A stretch of 64,000 nucleotides of DNA, from assembly GCA_945874535.1 (NCBI GenBank), contig CAMCGZ010000003.1, positions 62,001 to 126,000 on the forward strand. The letters are read 5' to 3'. The position numbers and the translations under genes were made by a program. The stretch comes from Bdellovibrio sp. ZAP7 (GTDB lineage Bacteria > Bdellovibrionota > UBA1018 > CAIMNF01). This document shows positions 2,916-63,084 of this stretch, one piece after another (positions within the stretch are counted from its first letter, which is position 1; each line of letters opens with the position of its first letter). The notes below the pieces were generated by a model. That model searched no databases. It had not been told where the DNA came from and saw only the letters and a program-made list of their open reading frames with translations.

Positions 2916-3028
2916 CCTCAAAGTGTCAAGGATGGCGTCGCCCGGGTCAATCCTGTCAAAGTCCTGACGCCGGATCACACGACCCGCTCCATTCAAGTTC
3001 CTTCCTGTGTCAGCCGATACCTAGGAAG

Positions 3029-3865
3029 ATGAGTACACACTCCTGGGTCCAGAAAATCCATTCGCTGCCGGTGCTCCCGCAAGTGGCCATGCGGGTGACC
3101 GAACGGATCCAGTCTTCGGGCTCCACGCTCGATGAGATTTCGCGCCTGATTGAGTCGGATGCAGGGCTCACTGCCAGGATTCTCAGACTCGCCAATTCCT
3201 CTTATTACTCGGTTCCGGGCGGAGTGAAAGACATCCGTAAGGCCCTTCAATTTTTGGGGTTCACCACTATCGCACAGGTGGTCCTCACCTCTTCCGTATT
3301 CGGGTCTTTCAAGAACCCGGGACTCAGGGATTTTCCTTTGCTTCCATTCTGGATCCATTCCCTGGCGGTGGGACAGGTGGCCGAATTGACCGCTCGGGGG
3401 CTCAACCTTCCCCAACCCTCCGATGCCTTCATCGGCGGACTGCTTCATGATGTCGGCAAACTGATTCTCCTCGAGCTGGCTCCGGATCAATTGGCTCGAA
3501 TCGCCCGCCATGCGCTGGAAAACGGGGTATCGTTCATCCGGGCCGAGAAGGATCTCGGATTCGAAGACCACATTTCTCTCGGCGTCGGCCTCTCCCGACA
3601 CTGGAAACTCCCCGAATTGGTGGAAGATGCCATCCGGTCCCACCATGGACTACCCGAAACCAAATCCGGTCAAATCATTGCCTGGGCAAATCTCTGGGTT
3701 CACCTCCAGGGCATCGGCGCCTCCGGCAGCCATGATCCTGAAATGGAATCACGGGCTCGAGAACTCGCGACCCTTCTCGGGCTCGGACCGTCCGTCACAG
3801 AAACCATCGAAAAACAATTCCGGAAGGAATTTGAAAAAGCGGAGGCGATACTCGGTGGCCATTAA
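3029..3865 (+). CDS. HDOD domain signalling protein
   Basis: 278 aa, almost entirely one HDOD domain. LPVLPQVAMRVTERIQSS...DAGLTARILRLANSSYY is the typical first half, and GLLHDVGKLILLE with SHHG matches the HD-derived motifs further on. HDOD proteins act in bacterial signal transduction without proven hydrolase activity. This is the first gene of a five-gene forward operon (HDOD, kinase, regulator, phosphatase, anchored protein). It overlaps the kinase gene by 11 bp, which suggests it feeds into or is controlled by that pathway. A purine-rich taggaag abuts the ATG. Confidence 0.9.
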   Translation: MSTHSWVQKIHSLPVLPQVAMRVTERIQSSGSTLDEISRLIESDAGLTARILRLANSSYYSVPGGVKDIRKALQFLGFTTIAQVVLTSSVFGSFKNPGLRDFPLLPFWIHSLAVGQVAELTARGLNLPQPSDAFIGGLLHDVGKLILLELAPDQLARIARHALENGVSFIRAEKDLGFEDHISLGVGLSRHWKLPELVEDAIRSHHGLPETKSGQIIAWANLWVHLQGIGASGSHDPEMESRARELATLLGLGPSVTETIEKQFRKEFEKAEAILGGH

Positions 3866-5006
3866 GCGTCTCAAACGCCTTGCCGAATCGCTCGTTCTTC
3901 CTGAAGGCTTGGAAGCTCTTCCGGTTCCCTTACTGCTTTATCGTAAGTCAGATGGCAGCCTGCTTCCCAATCCTGAATTCATTGCCGTATTCGGAGCAAA
4001 TGCCCCCGCAAGGATCCTTTCTGCCCGCCCTCTCGGCCTTGCCCAAGAGCGCCCCGTTCATCCGAGCGCGTTTGAGACTCCGGGAAGACAGGAAGGTTGT
4101 GTTCTCGAGAATGACCGTGGCGAACGGATCTCGGTGGACCTGCGGGTGACCCCCTACGGGAAGACCTCGGAAGAGACCTGGTTGGTGATGTTCGAAGACA
4201 CCGGCCCGAGAGTCGACCTCCAGAACCAACTGGTGAAGCAACATTTAGAGCTTCAAAAATCCTATGAGCAACTGCGATCCTTACAGCAAGCTCTCATTCA
4301 ATCGGCCAAACTGGCCTCTCTTGGCGAACTCGCCTCCGGGGTGGCGCACGAATTGAATCAGCCGCTCCAAGCGATCATGGGTTTCAGCCAGGAACTCAAA
4401 TTTATCGAAAAACTTTCGCCTGTCGGCTCCGAGTATGCAGATGACATCGTTTCGGCCTCGAAGAAGATGGCCGAAATCATCAAATCACTCAGAACATTCG
4501 CCAGGGATTCGGGTCAGGAACTTCAAGCGACCTCGGTCGGCCATGCCATCGAGGAGTCTTCAAGACTTCTCCGGCACACCTTCCTCCAAGCCGGGGTCAC
4601 TCTTGAGCTCAACGTCGAATCCGACCTTCCCCTCACCCATGCAAATCCGATCCAACTGGAGCAAGTTTTTGTCAACCTGCTCAGCAATGCCAAGGATGCG
4701 CTCGAAACCTCCGGAAACCCCTCCCCTAAAGTTTCCATCGTAGCCAGCACCACTTCTGAGGGCATCCGGGTCCAAGTCATCGACAACGGATGCGGCATGC
4801 CGCCCGAAGTCCGCGACAGGATCTTCGACCCGTTTTTCACGACCAAGCCGGTTGGCAAAGGAACCGGCCTCGGACTCAGCATCACCCATGGCATCCTCTC
4901 CCGGGCTGGAGCACGCATCAGCGTGGAAAGCGCCCCGGGAGCTGGAACCCGATTCACCCTGCTTTTCCCAATTGACCGTTCACAAACAGAAGGAGAGACC
5001 GCATGA
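3855..5006 (+). CDS. NtrB-like sensor histidine kinase (soluble, PAS-like input)
   Basis: 383 aa from a GTG at 3855 that sits ~10 bases after a GGAGG. Residues ~20-115 look PAS-like, followed by a coiled linker (~117-150). The HisKA helix has the phosphorylated His at ~165 (SGVAHELNQPLQAIMGF). The ATPase domain has the N box (QVFVNLLSNAKDALE), G1 (DNGCGMP), F (FDPFFTTK) and G2 (GKGTGLGLSI) boxes. No membrane segment, so the input is cytoplasmic, perhaps the HDOD protein. The stop overlaps the regulator start by 4 bp. Confidence 0.93.
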   Translation: MAIKRLKRLAESLVLPEGLEALPVPLLLYRKSDGSLLPNPEFIAVFGANAPARILSARPLGLAQERPVHPSAFETPGRQEGCVLENDRGERISVDLRVTPYGKTSEETWLVMFEDTGPRVDLQNQLVKQHLELQKSYEQLRSLQQALIQSAKLASLGELASGVAHELNQPLQAIMGFSQELKFIEKLSPVGSEYADDIVSASKKMAEIIKSLRTFARDSGQELQATSVGHAIEESSRLLRHTFLQAGVTLELNVESDLPLTHANPIQLEQVFVNLLSNAKDALETSGNPSPKVSIVASTTSEGIRVQVIDNGCGMPPEVRDRIFDPFFTTKPVGKGTGLGLSITHGILSRAGARISVESAPGAGTRFTLLFPIDRSQTEGETA

Positions 5007-5692
5007 ACACCGAACCCGTCGTACTGATCGTTGATGATGAAGAGACCATCCGCAAGCTTCTGAAAGCCCGCTTCGAGCGGGATGGATTCAGAGTGGTCAC
5101 TGCATCTTCGGCAGAAGAGGCGCGGACCGTCGTGGAATCCACCCCGGATCTCGGAGTCATGGTCACCGACATCCGCATGCCGGGTAAAGACGGACTCACC
5201 CTCACCGCTGAGGTGAAGGCTTCACACAAACACCTGAAGATCATTGTGATGACGGGGCATGGAGAAAAATCGACTGCAATTCGCGCTCTCCGGATCGGAG
5301 CCTCCGATTACCTCGAAAAACCGTTCGACATCGAAGAGATGACCCATGCTGTGGCTCGGACTGTGAATGAATATAAACTGGAAATGCGAAATGAGGAGAT
5401 CCTCGCGACCGCCCTGGTGAGCGCTCCCCCGGTGGCAGGTGTCTCATCCGTTCCGACCGGTGAAGACATCTGGTCCGAGAATGACAGCCTCACGAGCAGC
5501 TACACCGTTCTGAAAAAGAAGTGGTCCGAGGCATTCGAGAAGGAGTACTTGACTTCCGTTCTCGAGCGTCACCACGGAAACGTCACTGCAGCAGCCAAAG
5601 AAGCTGCTGTGGACCGAAGCAACTTCCTCCGGCTACTGCGCCGTCACCACATCGACGCAGCCGTATATCGTCCTCAAAAGAAGGCTTCCTGA
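5003..5692 (+). CDS. Response regulator: receiver plus Fis-type HTH, no AAA+ domain
   Basis: 229 aa. The receiver (1-~120) has the acidic pair DDE at 11-13, phospho-acceptor Asp56 (MVTDIRMPG) and Lys106 (LEKPFD). A linker of ~60 residues leads to a Fis/HTH_8 helix-turn-helix (HGNVTAAAKEAAVDRSNFLRLL is the recognition region, ~190-215). The architecture is that of RegA/PrrA/ActR regulators, which bind DNA without the sigma-54 AAA+ module. The start is coupled to the kinase, its probable phosphodonor. Targets are unknown. Confidence 0.92.
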   Translation: MNTEPVVLIVDDEETIRKLLKARFERDGFRVVTASSAEEARTVVESTPDLGVMVTDIRMPGKDGLTLTAEVKASHKHLKIIVMTGHGEKSTAIRALRIGASDYLEKPFDIEEMTHAVARTVNEYKLEMRNEEILATALVSAPPVAGVSSVPTGEDIWSENDSLTSSYTVLKKKWSEAFEKEYLTSVLERHHGNVTAAAKEAAVDRSNFLRLLRRHHIDAAVYRPQKKAS

Positions 5693-5695
5693 ACC

Positions 5696-7135
5696 GTGTC
5701 GGTCTCGATCGGAGCCCGGCTCCTTTTCGTGACCCTCATCCTCCAGTTTTTGTCGGTCTCGATCGTTGTACTCGGATCGAGCTGGAACCATGCGGGAGTG
5801 ATGTTGGAGCGCGAGGAAAGGCACTTGGCCCATCATATCGATCATTTTGTTGAGAACTGGAACCGGAATGCCCAGCCCTGGATCGGGCCTGAGGGTGTAC
5901 GGTTCCAGCTACTCTCTCCGGAATCGAAGATTCTTGCCGACACCGCTGACCCGAAGAGAGTCGGCAAACGTCTCGCAAAACCCCACCTTTTCCTCGAACT
6001 CGCTCTGAAATCCGGGATCGATCGGGGATCGATCCGGCCTTACGGACTCTTTCGATTCCTCCCGGACCGTAAACTGGTACTGGCTTCCATTCCGGGTAAC
6101 ACCTTCATGGAGGAGTTCCGGAAGAATCTTGTGGAACAGGCTCGCCTGGGTCTGCTTCTCGGAGGATGCACACTACTTCTCACCCTTTTCCTCTTCCGGA
6201 CTTTACTCAGGCCCCTCAAAGAACTCACGGTAGCCCTGGAACAGGCGGAGAACGGAAGTCTCGATGTGCCCCTTCCCCAAGCGGGAAGTGACGAGACCGG
6301 AATCCTGATCCGGGTTTGCGGAGTACTGATCGAACGGATCCGGATGCTGCTCGCCGGTGAAGCCCGGTCGAGCAGGATGGAGGAAGAAGTCAATATCGCC
6401 GCTGAAATCCAGTCCCGATTGCTCCCTCCGCCGGAAGTTCGCATGGGTCCATGCGAGGTGCAGAGTCATTATCAATCTGCAACCGAGACGGGCGGAGACT
6501 TCTGGGGATGTTTCGAATCGGAAGGGAAAGTCTACCTCTACGTGGGAGATGTGACCGGACACGGTCTTCCGAGCGCACTCGTTACAGCCGGAGTCCGTGG
6601 TTCATTGGCTACGCTCATCAAAAATGAGGGAAATACCCCTTCTTCTTCTCCGACACTCAAAGACATTCTCACTACCGCCAATTCGGCTGTTTGGGACATC
6701 GGCGGAGGAGAATTGCAGATGACGCTATTCGTATCCGTCTTTGACCCGTCGATCAATACCCTTCACTACGCAGGAGCGGGACATCCCCCTGCATGGATCT
6801 TCAAGAAATCCGAAGCAGAAAAAAGCTCGATCCTCCACAGCCGCGGAACACGGCTGGGAGAAGGTCCCTCACTCACCGTGATCGATGAACACTCCACTTC
6901 TTTCGGGTCGGGAGACACACTTCTGCTCTATACCGATGGAATGCTCACCCCGCGTGGTGAGGACCTCACTGCCGAGCACAGGACCGCATTCCGGAGTGCA
7001 ATCGCCGGAATCCTCGCAAAAGAGGAGAATCTCGGCCGTTCGAAGACTGCCATCGAGTTTCTGCTTTTCGAGGCCACTGGAGGATCACCCCCGGCTGACG
7101 ACATCACTTTTGCATTAATGAGGGTCGGACCATGA
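5696..7135 (+). CDS. Membrane HAMP-PP2C (SpoIIE/RsbU-type) serine phosphatase
   Basis: 479 aa from a GTG three bases after the regulator stop. One N-terminal membrane helix (~8-28), a periplasmic part (~30-140), a second helix (~148-166) and a HAMP region (~168-215) precede the PP2C domain. The metal-binding motifs GGDFWG, GDVTGHGLPSALV, YTDGM and PADDIT are all present. Such phosphatases normally dephosphorylate anti-sigma-factor antagonists (STAS proteins). No such partner is in this operon, but a STAS-like protein is encoded at 23890-24492. Confidence 0.92.
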   Translation: MSVSIGARLLFVTLILQFLSVSIVVLGSSWNHAGVMLEREERHLAHHIDHFVENWNRNAQPWIGPEGVRFQLLSPESKILADTADPKRVGKRLAKPHLFLELALKSGIDRGSIRPYGLFRFLPDRKLVLASIPGNTFMEEFRKNLVEQARLGLLLGGCTLLLTLFLFRTLLRPLKELTVALEQAENGSLDVPLPQAGSDETGILIRVCGVLIERIRMLLAGEARSSRMEEEVNIAAEIQSRLLPPPEVRMGPCEVQSHYQSATETGGDFWGCFESEGKVYLYVGDVTGHGLPSALVTAGVRGSLATLIKNEGNTPSSSPTLKDILTTANSAVWDIGGGELQMTLFVSVFDPSINTLHYAGAGHPPAWIFKKSEAEKSSILHSRGTRLGEGPSLTVIDEHSTSFGSGDTLLLYTDGMLTPRGEDLTAEHRTAFRSAIAGILAKEENLGRSKTAIEFLLFEATGGSPPADDITFALMRVGP

Positions 7136-7722
7136 ACCGGTTCTCGAAATGGGAGTGGTTTTACATCTTCGTGGCCACCGGCCAAATCATTCTTGGGGTT
7201 TCGATCCAGAATCCTCCGGACTCTGGAACCGCACCCGACCCTTTCGAAGGTGAATACATCAAGGCCAGTTCGCTCGAACAAGCTGTGGATGAATCGAGGA
7301 AGCCTCAGAAAATCTCTCTGCCTGAATCCTCCTTGAAAGACTGGATGGCCGGCGATGTGAAAGTGAGAGATGAGGTTGTGAGCACGCCATCTCCGACGCC
7401 TCTACCGAAACTCTCCCGCACCTCTGAAGAATCGGTACGGGCCTTCCTACTCGAACCAACTCATCAGACCGTCTTCAAGAGAGATCGAAAAGAAGAAGGT
7501 GCTTTCCGGGTCATGTTCCGTTTTGAAGTGTTCCCCAAGGACCGATCCGGAAAGCTCCAGGTCCTGAAGGACGGGAAAACCGTTTTGGAGATCCCATTTG
7601 AAGGCAGTTCAGACGGATCCCATCGCACCGGAGCGATGATCCAGAAGCCGGGCGTTTACCAATGGCGGATCATCACGGAGGAATACAAAGGAGACTACCG
7701 GAACTTCACTCTCCGGCCCTGA
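7132..7722 (+). CDS. Membrane-anchored hypothetical protein with Ig-like C-terminal part
   Basis: 196 aa. One N-terminal hydrophobic segment (WFYIFVATGQIILGVSI) is followed by a Pro/Ser-rich linker. The C-terminal ~90 residues look like a beta-sandwich (FRVMFRFEVFPKD...LQVLKDGKTVLEIPF...GVYQWRIITEEYKGDYRNFTL), resembling FecR-associated or Ig-like periplasmic domains. The start overlaps the phosphatase stop by 4 bp, so it probably works with that membrane phosphatase on the periplasmic side. No family recognised. Confidence 0.7.
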   Translation: MNRFSKWEWFYIFVATGQIILGVSIQNPPDSGTAPDPFEGEYIKASSLEQAVDESRKPQKISLPESSLKDWMAGDVKVRDEVVSTPSPTPLPKLSRTSEESVRAFLLEPTHQTVFKRDRKEEGAFRVMFRFEVFPKDRSGKLQVLKDGKTVLEIPFEGSSDGSHRTGAMIQKPGVYQWRIITEEYKGDYRNFTLRP

Positions 7723-8968
7723 GAGAGGCCATGAAGAATCCATCTGTATCGAATGGTCCGATGAATCCGGATGAGTCGAGACTGAACCGCTGATGGGTCT
7801 GTAAGAACTTCTCAATCCGCTCGGTGGACTCGGCCCGATTCTGCGTGCAAACTCCGTAAACCAGCCTTCCGCCCGGTTTCACTAAACGGGAATAGGTCTC
7901 AAGAACCGATTCTTGAAGAGTGCCGATCGGCAGGCTTCCTTCCACTTTGGCTTGCTCGAGCGGCTTCCGATTCCACTTCGTATCGGGATTCCGGCGCAAA
8001 ACCCCGGTACCACTGCAAGGAGCATCAATGAGTACCACGTCGGACTTGCCCTCGAAGGGTGTCAAGCCCGGATCCCCGGTGCGCGGAAGCAGTTTTGCCT
8101 GCACATTTCTTTCACCCGCACGGTCGATCCGTTGCCTGAGATTCCTGACTTTCATTTCAAAAACGTCGTAAGCGTAGACCCTGCCCCTACCCCCCATCAA
8201 ATCAGAAAGAGCGAGAGTCTTACCACCCGCACCGGCACAGGCATCCACCACTTCCATGGGCGCGGCCTGGAGATCATTCGGCAACGAAGGAAACGGACTC
8301 CTTTCCACACCGGGACGATCGCGAAGGTGCGGCCGGACCGATTCGGGAAGGAGGGCATACAAACTCATGATTTGGGAACCCTCGTCCTGAATCTCAAAGT
8401 AACCCTGTTTGAACCAATCATTCTTCTGGACGGCGGCGAAACCCCTGAAAATACGGGCACGTGTGGAATGATTCCCGGGTCTTGATTTGGGCAATCCTGC
8501 CTCACTCAACCAAGACTCCAACTCCGGCAACAAGCGTCCGTCGTTTCCGAAAGCACGACGATGAAAGCGAATCACTGTCAGCGGATCCTGACTGAGCAAC
8601 CTAGCCATTTTTTGGGCATGATCTTCGCCCCAATCCCGAGTCCACTCCGAAATCATCGCCGGTGGAAAATCCTCGACCCCTCCTTCGCTCGGAATCTCCT
8701 CCCAACGCTGCCAGAGGTCCCGGAGTGTCGCATGAATTCCGTCGTGCTTCTTGAGTCGGATGAAGCTGAGATTCCAGAACTCCAGGGGAGTGGCCTCCAG
8801 GCGGATCTTGAAGGTCGACGCTACGGTCAGGGGTCTTCTCAAAAATGCGCCGAGCAAAGTCGCTACCTTGGATTTCTTCGATGGATCCAGCTTGGAAACC
8901 ATCGAATCGAAATGGGTCCTGCTCTCACAGAATGCAGCGAAGACCTCGTTGAGTACGGTCGATTTCAT
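7706..8968 (-). CDS. RsmB/NOP2/Sun-family RNA cytosine-5 methyltransferase (paralogue 1)
   Basis: 420 aa from the ATG at 8968, 10 bp after the pyruvate kinase stop. The C-terminal half is a class I SAM methyltransferase with ACAGAGGKTLAL (SAM loop), LIDAPCSGTGVLRR (motif IV, conserved Cys) and YGVCTQNRAES (motif VI, the catalytic Cys position). The N-terminal half is not the NusB-like domain of true RsmB, so the RNA target may differ from 16S C967. A second family member with a NusB-like domain lies at 30857-32125. Its last 17 bp overlap the convergent 7132-7722 gene. Confidence 0.87.
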   Translation of the reverse strand: MKSTVLNEVFAAFCESRTHFDSMVSKLDPSKKSKVATLLGAFLRRPLTVASTFKIRLEATPLEFWNLSFIRLKKHDGIHATLRDLWQRWEEIPSEGGVEDFPPAMISEWTRDWGEDHAQKMARLLSQDPLTVIRFHRRAFGNDGRLLPELESWLSEAGLPKSRPGNHSTRARIFRGFAAVQKNDWFKQGYFEIQDEGSQIMSLYALLPESVRPHLRDRPGVERSPFPSLPNDLQAAPMEVVDACAGAGGKTLALSDLMGGRGRVYAYDVFEMKVRNLRQRIDRAGERNVQAKLLPRTGDPGLTPFEGKSDVVLIDAPCSGTGVLRRNPDTKWNRKPLEQAKVEGSLPIGTLQESVLETYSRLVKPGGRLVYGVCTQNRAESTERIEKFLQTHQRFSLDSSGFIGPFDTDGFFMASLRAGE

Positions 8969-8978
8969 CAGGAAGTCT

Positions 8979-10457
8979 TCAATTCCGACCCCTGCCCGGG
9001 GCCCTGTTCTTGATCTGATGGACCTTGATCGTATTCGTGGTTCCACGACCGAGACTCGGAGTACCGGCTGTCACGACAATCAAATCATCTTCTTCTGCCC
9101 GCTGATTCTCGACCAGGGTCCGACCCACCATTCCAAACAGATCATCAGTGGCGACCAACTCCGGAATCAAAACGCCTTCCACTCCCCACACGAATGCGAG
9201 TTTGCGGAGAGATGCTTCATTGTCCATGATGGCGACAATAGGTATCTCCGGCCGATATTTGGCCAAGGTGCGGGCTGCGGTGCCTGAATGGGTCAGGCAG
9301 GCAATCGCACGGGCACCCACATGGCTTGCAATCCGGGAGGCACTGAACTCGATCGAATCCACAATCGATCCTGAAACGGGAATCAAATTCTGGTGAACAG
9401 AATAGCGGGTTTCGCCTTCCGCCTCACAAATGATCCGGGCCATGGTTTCAACCGCTTCTACCGGATACTGTCCGGACGCCGACTCGGCCGAAAGCATCAC
9501 GGCATCGGTTCCATCAAAGACCGCATTGGCAACATCGGACGCTTCAGCCCGGGTCGGAGTCGGGCACGAAATCATGCTCTCGAGCATCTGGGTCGCGGTA
9601 ATGACTGGTACGCCGAGTTCATTCGACATCCGGATGAGCATCTTCTGGATGATGGGTACTTTCTCAGCCCCAAGTTCGACTGCCATATCTCCACGGGCAA
9701 TCAGGATCCCGTCGGTAACTTCGAGAATACCCTCAGGAGCATAGACCGCTTCTTCGCGTTCGATCTTGGCCACCAGCAATGGATGATGATTGCTGTTCTT
9801 CCGGATCTGCTCCTTCACAAAAGTGACGTCTTGCGGGGTACGCACAAAAGAAAGGGCAACCGAGTCCACTCCGAGTTCGAGTCCGAGCTTCAAGTCCCTG
9901 AGATCTTTATCGGTGGCACAAGGGAGAGACAGGGGGGTACCCGGAAGATTCATGCCCTTGTTGGATGTCAGCTTCCCACCCACAGAAACCGTCACGACCA
10001 TCTCGGGCGCATGGACTTCTTTGACTTCGCTTGAAATCTTACCGTCATCGAACAGGATGCGGGACCCCTTGCGGACGTCTTTGGACAAGGGACCTGCGAT
10101 CTCGGCTGAAATGGGAATCGCGATCCTACCGGTCAAAGAGGATCTGGGATCGGTTCCTTCCGGGAACAACAAAACCTCATCTCCGGCCTTTAAATCAATT
10201 CCCGGAGCAGGGATTTTCCCGACCCTGAGCTTGGGACCTTGCAAATCCTGGAGGATGCCGACATGCTTGCCCGCGTTTTTTGCAGCAGCCCTCACCGAAG
10301 CGAAGAGATCACGGTGAACTTCGTGGGTCCCGTGGCTGAAATTGAGACGGGCCGTGTCGAGCCCGGCTCGGATCAGCTTTTCTATTTTCTCAGGGGTGTT
10401 GCTCGAAGGACCGAGCGTACCGACAATCTTAACTTTTCTTCGCGATGAGATGTGCAT
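8979..10457 (-). CDS. pyk: Pyruvate kinase
   Basis: 492 aa, full length for the family. The start RRKVKIVGTLGPSSNTPEKIEKLI is the conserved N-terminus with the substrate-binding region, and LLVAKIEREEAV is the active-site signature with the catalytic Lys. GILIARGDMAVELGAEKVP and ITATQMLESM are further hallmarks. It converts phosphoenolpyruvate and ADP to pyruvate and ATP in the cytoplasm. Its start lies 29 bp inside the end of the upstream coiled-coil gene, so the two are probably co-transcribed. Confidence 0.97.
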   Translation of the reverse strand: MHISSRRKVKIVGTLGPSSNTPEKIEKLIRAGLDTARLNFSHGTHEVHRDLFASVRAAAKNAGKHVGILQDLQGPKLRVGKIPAPGIDLKAGDEVLLFPEGTDPRSSLTGRIAIPISAEIAGPLSKDVRKGSRILFDDGKISSEVKEVHAPEMVVTVSVGGKLTSNKGMNLPGTPLSLPCATDKDLRDLKLGLELGVDSVALSFVRTPQDVTFVKEQIRKNSNHHPLLVAKIEREEAVYAPEGILEVTDGILIARGDMAVELGAEKVPIIQKMLIRMSNELGVPVITATQMLESMISCPTPTRAEASDVANAVFDGTDAVMLSAESASGQYPVEAVETMARIICEAEGETRYSVHQNLIPVSGSIVDSIEFSASRIASHVGARAIACLTHSGTAARTLAKYRPEIPIVAIMDNEASLRKLAFVWGVEGVLIPELVATDDLFGMVGRTLVENQRAEEDDLIVVTAGTPSLGRGTTNTIKVHQIKNRAPGRGRN

Positions 10458-61870: not shown

Positions 61871-63084
61871 TGGATACCCGAAAGTCTGACGGTTCGTCCG
61901 CCCTCGAGAGAGAGGCGCAATTCGCCCTTCAAAAACGCCAGCAGTACCTGCAATCCGGAATCGCCCAATTGTGGGCTCACCAAGCCGGAATCCGAAAGAT
62001 CCGATAGCTCCTTCGGGTGGAGCCTCAGAAGAGGGAGCAGATTTTGGGGCTGGACAATGTGCTTGGATGAAACACGGAATTCGTCCGAAAGGATATCGAG
62101 GACGACGCGCAGTAAATCCATCGACCGACCCTCTTCAGCACTGGGCTGGAGGATGTTCCGACGCTTCACTTCAACGGGGATCTCGTCCTGACTTGCGATC
62201 CCGCGAATGACCGCTTCCAGGATGCGCTCGCCGTGAGGAGGTTTGGCTTCTCCTTTTGAAAGTCCACGGAATCCCTGGAGCTGCTCGATCGTTGCAGGCT
62301 TGATCTTGGCGAGATCGATCAGAACTCCGTCTTCGGCCAACCACCGTCTGGGCACATTCAACTCGCGGACGCGGGCTTCGCGCCAACGGACGAGTTCAAG
62401 CAGGATGGCGTAATCACGGACGTGGAACTTACCCGATTGAGCCAGTCGCTTGGCAATGTCCTCCGGCGGAACCTCATAAAGATTCCGGTCCGAGAACTTC
62501 GACGACAGATCGAGAGCCCAGTCCCTCCGGCCGTTCTCGTCCAGGCGTTTGAACAGAATTTCCGCGACCTCGATCAGATGCTTCACATCGAGAAGCGCAT
62601 ATTCCAGAACCGGTTTTGGAAGAGGGCGCTTCGCCCAATTGGTCCGGGCATAACCTTTGGGAAGTTCGATACCGAGCACCGACCGGAGCAGATTCCCGAG
62701 TCCGATATTGTCTCCGAGTCCACAAAGAGACGCCCCTACTGCCGTATCAAAGAGCGGCTGGGCCAGCACACCATAGCTCGCCAGGAGGCATTCCTGATCA
62801 CCGTGCGCAGCATGAACAATCTTGAGAATGGAGGGATTCGTCAATGCCTCGAGAATGGGAGCCATATCCCGCTTATGAACAGCCTTCGCATCGATCAGCC
62901 AAGCCCCCTCGGGCGTGGCCAATTGAAGCACTTCCAATTTCGGATAAAAGGTACTCTCACGGATGAATTCGGTATCGTAGGCGATGTACTGAGCCGATGA
63001 CAGCTCCTGTCCGATCGAGACGATACGTTTCGGATCAGTGATCAGTTCAAGCTCGGAAGTCTGGGAGGAAGGAAACCCGGTCAT
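61852..63084 (-). CDS. rnd: Ribonuclease D
   Basis: 410 aa. The DEDD exonuclease has IAYDTEFIRESTFYP (Asp, Glu), IVHAAHGDQECLL (Asp) and LEYALLDVKHLI (Tyr and Asp). PKGYARTNWAKRPL is the usual middle segment. A first HRDC-like domain lies at ~210-290 (RWLAEDGVLIDLAKIKPATIEQLQGFRGLSKGE) and a less clear second one further on. It trims 3' ends of tRNA precursors and other structured RNAs. Slightly longer than the E. coli enzyme (375). Confidence 0.94.
   Translation of the reverse strand: MTGFPSSQTSELELITDPKRIVSIGQELSSAQYIAYDTEFIRESTFYPKLEVLQLATPEGAWLIDAKAVHKRDMAPILEALTNPSILKIVHAAHGDQECLLASYGVLAQPLFDTAVGASLCGLGDNIGLGNLLRSVLGIELPKGYARTNWAKRPLPKPVLEYALLDVKHLIEVAEILFKRLDENGRRDWALDLSSKFSDRNLYEVPPEDIAKRLAQSGKFHVRDYAILLELVRWREARVRELNVPRRWLAEDGVLIDLAKIKPATIEQLQGFRGLSKGEAKPPHGERILEAVIRGIASQDEIPVEVKRRNILQPSAEEGRSMDLLRVVLDILSDEFRVSSKHIVQPQNLLPLLRLHPKELSDLSDSGLVSPQLGDSGLQVLLAFLKGELRLSLEGGRTVRLSGIHQVDGE

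Follow-up and report, generated by a model that had tools for sequence, protein, structure and literature searches.

How a response regulator of the NtrC family may work once the AAA+ part that remodels sigma-54 polymerase is gone is a question raised by a signalling operon of Bdellovibrio sp. ZAP7. The operon lies in a 64,000-nucleotide stretch of DNA, the whole of which is called the window here (contig CAMCGZ010000003.1, positions 62,001 to 126,000, from assembly GCA_945874535.1, which comprises 2.4 Mb in 39 contigs). Its five genes, at 3029-7722 of the window on the plus strand, encode an HDOD protein, a soluble histidine kinase, a regulator composed of a receiver and a Fis-type DNA-binding domain, a HAMP-PP2C phosphatase, and a protein called X; an earlier note on this DNA had described such an operon, and all five genes were confirmed. 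Sequence comparison identifies the regulator as an orthologue of NtrC-family proteins from which the entire AAA+ domain has been lost, with receiver, Fis domain, kinase, HDOD protein and promoter site kept. We hold, with moderate confidence, that this Bdellovibrio-lineage signalling operon would contain an attack-phase two-component module whose regulator works without sigma-54.

Ancestry of the AAA-less regulator

The locus was compared among 12 genomes of the genus, including that of the window, and one genome of a sister genus, together referred to as the family. Four genus genomes (G002, G010, G004 and G007) carry at this locus a long regulator of 505-516 amino acids with receiver-AAA+-Fis (REC-AAA+-Fis) architecture, and the sister genus (G012) has a full REC-AAA+-Fis regulator of 494 amino acids, with the Walker A motif GHTGTGKE and the loop GAFSGA. 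A short form of 225-240 amino acids is found in the remaining eight genus genomes (the window's own, G009, G006, G003, G005, G001, G011 and G008); as it occurs in eight separate assemblies, it is not an assembly fault. Compared with the five long forms of the family, the window regulator is 51-63% identical in the receiver and 59-70% in the Fis part. Walker A, GAFTGA and Walker B are absent from it and from its seven short relatives in the genus, and are present in the same-locus orthologues. The AAA+ domain of G002, which is 74-75% identical in the other three long genus forms and 51% identical in G012, gave no tblastn match in the eight other genus loci, where no remnant was seen. The regulator shares ancestry, as an orthologue, with REC-AAA+-Fis proteins, and does not possess the AAA+ domain expected of a sigma-54 activator. 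Since its nearest relatives are full NtrC-type proteins at the same locus, the Fis-only architecture is a derived state.

Judging from gene trees, the AAA+ domain may have been lost once or twice within the genus, two losses being slightly favoured. In a tree built without operon genes (rpoB, pyruvate kinase, EamA and RsmB, each missing in 1-2 of the 13 genomes), the AAA-less G005 joins the full-length G002 with a bootstrap of 89, and a single clade of AAA-less genomes received p = 0.059 in the approximately unbiased test on these genes. The same pair was recovered after the addition of operon genes (bootstrap 71). FastTree placed G005 with the sister genus (0.999) when operon genes were included and with G002 (0.977) when they were excluded, and an earlier gene set without rpoB grouped the AAA-less genomes, with 93.4 in the Shimodaira-Hasegawa-like approximate likelihood ratio test and a bootstrap of 47. 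Loss of sigma-54 as the cause of AAA+ loss was rejected, because RpoN is present in 13/13 genomes of the family (12/12 of the genus). A phylum-wide search for the AAA-less form, in which 10 candidates per genome were scored, found matches at E <= 1e-30 in 35 of 290 genomes, all in the order of the window genome.

The features of the locus are collected in Table 1. The name pyruvate kinase in the downstream flank is presumed from the sequence. On the upstream side, the longest EamA frame (2016-2996, with a TTG start at 2996) overlaps the promoter of the operon, and the true EamA start probably lies further inside that frame.

Table 1. Features of the signalling locus and its flanks, in window coordinates (aa, amino acids)
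Feature	Position	Strand	Evidence or remark
HDOD protein, 278 aa	3029-3865	+	PF08668 177.5 bits (cut-off 22.9), E 2.9e-52
Soluble histidine kinase, 383 aa	3855-5006	+	N-terminal region, HisKA 46.9 bits, HATPase_c 95.1 bits
Response regulator, NtrC family without AAA+, 229 aa	5003-5692	+	PF00072 107.2 bits; HTH_8 25.9 bits
Receiver domain	5021-5353	+	Acidic pocket, phospho-acceptor Asp, Thr and Lys intact
Linker (approximate limits), AAA+ site in full-length orthologues	5405-5479	+	Alignment; no AAA+ remnant by tblastn
Fis-type DNA-binding domain (approximate limits)	5480-5677	+	Least changing part of the regulator in close genome pairs
HAMP-PP2C (SpoIIE-type) phosphatase, 479 aa	5696-7135	+	PF07228 104.6 bits
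Protein X, 196 aa, probably membrane-anchored	7132-7722	+	N-terminal helix, linker, 8-stranded beta domain (model)
Sigma-28 (FliA)-type promoter, TCAAG-N16-CCGATA	2993-3019	+	Matches published attack-phase consensus
EamA, RDD and FecR-like genes	581-2996	opposite strand	FecR 23.8 bits, just under cut-off 24
RsmB-type methyltransferase and pyruvate kinase (presumed)	7706-10457		Downstream flank

Gene order and the phosphatase pair

The five genes follow one another at distances of -11, -4, +3 and -4 bases, so that translational coupling is likely; the kinase gene begins with a GTG at 3855 inside the HDOD gene and overlaps the HDOD stop. The kinase, with the H-box HELNQ, has no predicted membrane part and is soluble, as had been proposed. 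The full order recurs in six further genus genomes and in the sister genus, which together with the tight spacing bears out the coupling of the signalling genes seen by the earlier note, and on sequence grounds this five-gene order is beyond chance. Both flanks are as in the window in five of these six genomes, the contig of G002 stopping after the fifth gene. In the sister genus the five genes are flanked by EamA, RDD and pyruvate kinase, and no FecR or RsmB match was seen in those flanks.

The first three genes are the most constant part. HDOD, kinase and regulator are adjacent, in identical order, in 13/13 genomes of the family. Within a class sample of 58 genomes, an HDOD match at E <= 1e-10 was obtained in 43, and matching of coordinates placed HDOD and the regulator receiver on one contig and one strand, a kinase-gene length apart, in 39 of them. 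In three of the four exceptions (G044, G045 and G052) the contigs break off within the locus and bear parts of the kinase or the regulator at the break; the fourth is G037. The phosphatase-X pair follows the core in 7/12 genus genomes and in the sister genus. Neither gene was found at the locus in the other five (G001, G011, G008, G004 and G007), where X had no genome-wide match at E <= 0.001 and the best phosphatase elsewhere is only about 31-33% identical. Among the 30 HDOD-bearing genomes outside the family, many of them with short contigs, comparison of coordinates gave no phosphatase match at the HDOD locus; in G025 a phosphatase match lies on the HDOD contig about 22 kb away, and G027 has HDOD on contig C4 and, together on C9, a match to the phosphatase and one resembling X (E 6e-4). 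By these comparisons the operon is a fixed HDOD-kinase-regulator core with a separable phosphatase-X add-on, and the add-on is an accessory pair of membrane proteins that accompanies the core in no family but that of the window genome. Free separation of the five genes in relatives, which the earlier note had named as evidence against their coupling, thus holds for phosphatase and X and not for the core.

This arrangement bears on the possibility that the phosphatase removes phosphate from Ser or Thr of the HDOD protein or the kinase, all five genes forming one circuit. Tight packing, with the phosphatase +3 bases after the regulator and X -4 after the phosphatase, and the conserved order described above are what such a circuit would lead one to expect. 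It is nevertheless doubtful, because the pair is missing beside the core in 5/12 genus genomes and the kinase or HDOD protein is therefore less likely as an obligate substrate. Moreover, AAA+ loss and the phosphatase-X pair occur in all four combinations, and the fold of the phosphatase is that of RsbU, RssB and SiaA. The known substrates of RsbU and SiaA are STAS proteins. The four combinations also led to rejection of a separate idea, that recruitment of the phosphatase was tied to AAA+ loss.

The phosphatase itself belongs to the SpoIIE-type PP2C proteins by fold and by its metal-binding Asp motifs. The motifs GGD, GDVTGHG, TDG and DD are present, and D268, D285, D414, D468 and D469 are invariant in 8/8 sequences. 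Its structural model (mean predicted local distance difference test score 84.7, predicted template modelling score 0.54) places a small domain between two long helices, followed by HAMP and PP2C; on this model the protein is probably membrane-bound, with a small extracytoplasmic part at about residues 59-133. The fold matches are 6k4e (SiaA), 3ke6 (the RsbU domain of Rv1364c) and 3f79 (RssB). Although HAMP, the SpoIIE-type PP2C domain and the fold are shared with SiaA and RsbU, the protein scores 38.7 bits against the SiaA equivalog, for which the cut-off is 700, and lies outside that family; furthermore, the operon holds neither a STAS gene nor the kinase of one. Four phosphatase matches at E <= 1e-20, this one included, are present in the genome. 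At E <= 0.001 neither Pfam nor NCBIfam has a family that matches protein X. In its model one helix (residues 6-24) is joined by a linker of low confidence to a beta domain that starts at residue 103; the fold search gave only generic beta-sandwich matches among 50 listed, with template modelling scores of 0.27-0.38 by query length.

The absence of a STAS or anti-sigma gene from the operon, stressed in the earlier note, was confirmed, and the distant STAS protein suggested there as a substrate has a candidate: a protein of 122 amino acids with a phospho-site-like SSG motif, which is the one STAS match in the genome, exceeds the cut-off and is encoded on another contig, contig 16 (L118 3154-3522). 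This lone protein is the likeliest substrate, with weak support. No RsbW-type kinase over cut-off was found in the genome, which has one HATPase_c_2 match below cut-off, and the partner-switch reading for the phosphatase is weakened in consequence.

The upstream promoter and a proposed mechanism

Shortly before HDOD, all 13 family genomes share a site of the form T(C/T/A)AAG-N16-CCGATA, with TCGATA as second box in G004 and a spacing one base shorter in G007. In the window the -10 box stops 9 bases short of the HDOD ATG, and a transcript begun there would have little or no leader. Elsewhere in the class, other families mostly have the beginning of the site 55-149 bases ahead of the estimated start of HDOD. 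In Karunker et al. (PMC3627812), TTAAG-N16-CCGATA is given for 92 of 140 B. bacteriovorus attack-phase promoters and ascribed to FliA; the window promoter has the same spacing and differs at the second base (TCAAG versus TTAAG). Karunker et al. also name two site-bearing regulators, bd0931 and bd1891, which may or may not correspond to the HDOD module.

The association of the site with HDOD was assessed in 42 of the 43 HDOD-bearing genomes, G037 being left out. With the spacing free by a base or two, it was present in 34/42 loci, against 1.4 expected from dinucleotide shuffles. At fixed spacing, the loose form occurred in 33/42 HDOD loci and the strict form in 21/42, compared with 37 and 5, respectively, of 3142 segments taken from these loci as controls. 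Outside the family that supplied the pattern, 21 of 29 loci have the site. FliA exceeds its family cut-off in 54/58 class genomes, that of the window among them, so both sequence marks of a FliA regulon, the promoter and a FliA gene in the genome, are present. The genome's own fliA gene stands behind genes of flagellar export, frames resembling fliR, flhB, flhA and flhF. The window has one strict site, and none with a following frame was seen in 39 kb around fliA; hence the site could not be tied to flagellar genes here. As side observations, a second CAAG..CCGATA match lies at 61981-62006 (two found in the window versus 0.17 expected from shuffles), and many class loci have an element TGTGTC directly before or overlapping CCGATA, beyond the FliA consensus, perhaps as an extension of the -10 element or as an operator.

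With these parts, the following sequence of events can be proposed. FliA, the flagellar and attack-phase sigma factor, would switch the operon on in the motile attack phase. The HDOD protein would act with the soluble kinase and modulate it, and the kinase would phosphorylate the receiver, whose VDDE, (T/S)D, MTG and EKP residues are kept in 8/8 AAA-less genus members. The phosphorylated receiver-Fis protein would then bind DNA as a dimer. As the AAA+ part is gone, its action is most likely on sigma-70 or sigma-28 promoters, by repression or by recruitment of polymerase. The phosphatase pair may pass a signal from outside on to a different target, for which the lone STAS protein would be the simplest choice. 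Phosphotransfer, DNA targets and phosphatase substrate are predictions drawn from sequence.

Erosion of the regulator across the class

The Fis part alone, used as query, was found in 45 of the 58 class genomes at E <= 1e-12. For a survey of motifs, 53 regulator sequences were taken, the best one per fetched locus; two regulators cut by contig ends (G045 and G048) and a second copy in G032 were excluded from receiver counts. An intact receiver is present in 41, of which 33 have Walker A, a GAFTGA-type loop and Walker B, and eight are the AAA-less forms of the genus. In G028, G040 and G053, all of one other genus, the AAA+ domain is missing and Asn replaces the receiver Asp. G041 and G042 have no receiver, a degenerate Walker A and no GAFTGA, and in G049, G022 and G017 the receivers are truncated or dead and the AAA+ motifs altered. 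The Fis part is near-invariant in most surveyed regulators, eroded ones included; eroded regulators with such a Fis part are those of G028 (L129 4712-5461), G053 (L138 433-1182), G040 (L130 1-744), G041 (L133 2856-3986), G042 (L132 3396-4526) and G049 (L126 2916-4133). Two further forms were noticed: in G013 (L128 2139-2900) a Fis domain of this regulator family stands behind an N-terminus without a Pfam match, and in G032 (L139 8172-9308) the second copy is receiver-less and partly degenerate, the normal HDOD-kinase-NtrC locus being kept as well.

Loss of the receiver goes together with loss of HDOD. HDOD is present in 41/41 genomes with an intact receiver versus 0/9 with a dead or missing one, most intact loci having been fetched through an HDOD or receiver match. 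The Fis-only search, which is blind to HDOD, gave among its 45 genomes 35 with HDOD (34 intact receivers, one cut) and 10 without (nine dead, one cut). No HDOD match was found in the genomes G028, G053, G040, G041, G042 and G049, and the fetched stretches of 3-11 kb around the eroded regulators yielded neither an HDOD nor a kinase match. The eroded regulator of G028, G053, G041 and G042 adjoins a gene matched in 12 normal loci, at best 81-84% identical, which we take to be lysine aminomutase-like; on the 4.2-kb contig of G049 no neighbour common to normal loci was seen. Traces of a FliA-type site were also observed upstream of the eroded regulator in G028, G053, G041 and G042.

Several observations weigh against the reading preferred here. 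The first 13 loci supplied the promoter pattern, which is therefore post hoc where they are concerned, and in its tested forms the site is absent from 8/42 loci (G018, G020, G024, G029, G039, G016, G014 and G045). No operator was found, and no exact 6-base palindrome is common to more than two of the 13 upstream regions. In G014, G019, G021, G023, G016, G055 and G056, members of three further families, the Fis part has clearly diverged, and its near-invariance is thus limited to a portion of the class. Additionally, the nine receiver-dead genomes are related (six genera), and HDOD adjoins the kinase, so that one deletion could remove both and the association may reflect the kinase alone. For these two reasons HDOD is tied to the phosphorylation branch of the module in general, contact with the kinase being a possibility.

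The eroded forms raise the possibility that the AAA-less regulator is itself a decaying leftover, in a module without output whose genes are on their way out. Lineages of the class with dead receivers, without Walker A and GAFTGA and without HDOD would fit such a course. Among five close genome pairs, however, nonsynonymous divergence (dN) is 0.012-0.019 in the Fis part (0.013 between G000 and G009 or G006) and 0.023-0.064 in the receiver, compared with 0.17-0.24 in the linker, in pairs whose synonymous sites (dS) are near or beyond saturation; strong purifying selection thus acts on receiver and Fis in the clade of the window. Furthermore, the reading frame is open and the promoter site kept in 8/8 AAA-less genomes, and many eroded forms retain the near-invariant Fis domain. 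Decay is accordingly judged improbable for the window regulator.

A working regulator might still serve sigma-54 promoters in trans, with the AAA+ ring supplied by another NtrC-family protein. The genome does have RpoN and at least one further receiver match of NtrC type, in a 468-amino-acid frame; no sign of pairing turned up, no search aimed at pairing having been made. A receiver and a Fis domain alone are not known to recruit a foreign AAA+ ring, and we regard this explanation as very improbable. A RegB/RegA (PrrB/PrrA)-type redox system with HDOD and phosphatase added, the affinity given in the earlier note and suggested by the receiver-Fis architecture and the soluble kinase, is hardly credible. 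Against NF033791 (ActR/PrrA/RegA, cut-off 250) the regulator reaches 77.2 bits, over the receiver only, and for the kinase the score with NF033792 (ActS/PrrB, cut-off 350) is 82.9 bits. With E <= 5 as limit, the Fis part has a single PDB match, to a nitrogen assimilation regulatory protein (5m7n, E 0.085), and the same-locus orthologues are full NtrC-type proteins. Membership was rejected on these cut-offs and the locus comparison.

The preferred reading, a module whose NtrC-derived regulator acts without sigma-54, can be set beside known systems. The window regulator shares with RegA, PrrA and ActR the REC-Fis architecture and a probable phospho-switched DNA binding, but falls under the family cut-off and derives from NtrC by domain loss; by analogy, it most likely works like RegA or FixJ, with a different ancestry. 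A published account (PMC10274813) describes NtrC of Rhodobacter capsulatus, NtrC of Caulobacter and VspR of Vibrio cholerae as NtrC-family activators that have lost GAFTGA. These proteins resemble the window regulator in NtrC ancestry and in a function moved off sigma-54. The R. capsulatus and Caulobacter proteins, as described there (PMC10274813), keep AAA+ without the sigma-54 loop, whereas the whole AAA+ domain is gone here. Loss of the sigma-54 loop in NtrC is thus already known; what sets the window regulator apart is the removal of the whole AAA+ domain with kinase, HDOD, neighbours and promoter site retained. No paper on an HDOD-kinase-regulator operon module was found among open-licence PubMed Central texts.

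Sister species with the full form offer a clean natural experiment, in which it can be asked whether the same Fis domain binds the same sites and what replaces sigma-54 activation. The HDOD proteins, whose role is poorly known, gain a constant kinase partner, and for the FliA-driven attack phase of predatory bacteria the operon supplies a candidate regulator. For the class as a whole, it is tentatively proposed that this regulator serves the attack phase and does its essential work through the Fis domain, the sigma-54 motor being optional and having been discarded whole or decayed in several lineages. If true, the class would present at one locus a natural series from a full enhancer-binding protein to a bare DNA-binding protein, with a FliA-type promoter in most tested loci.

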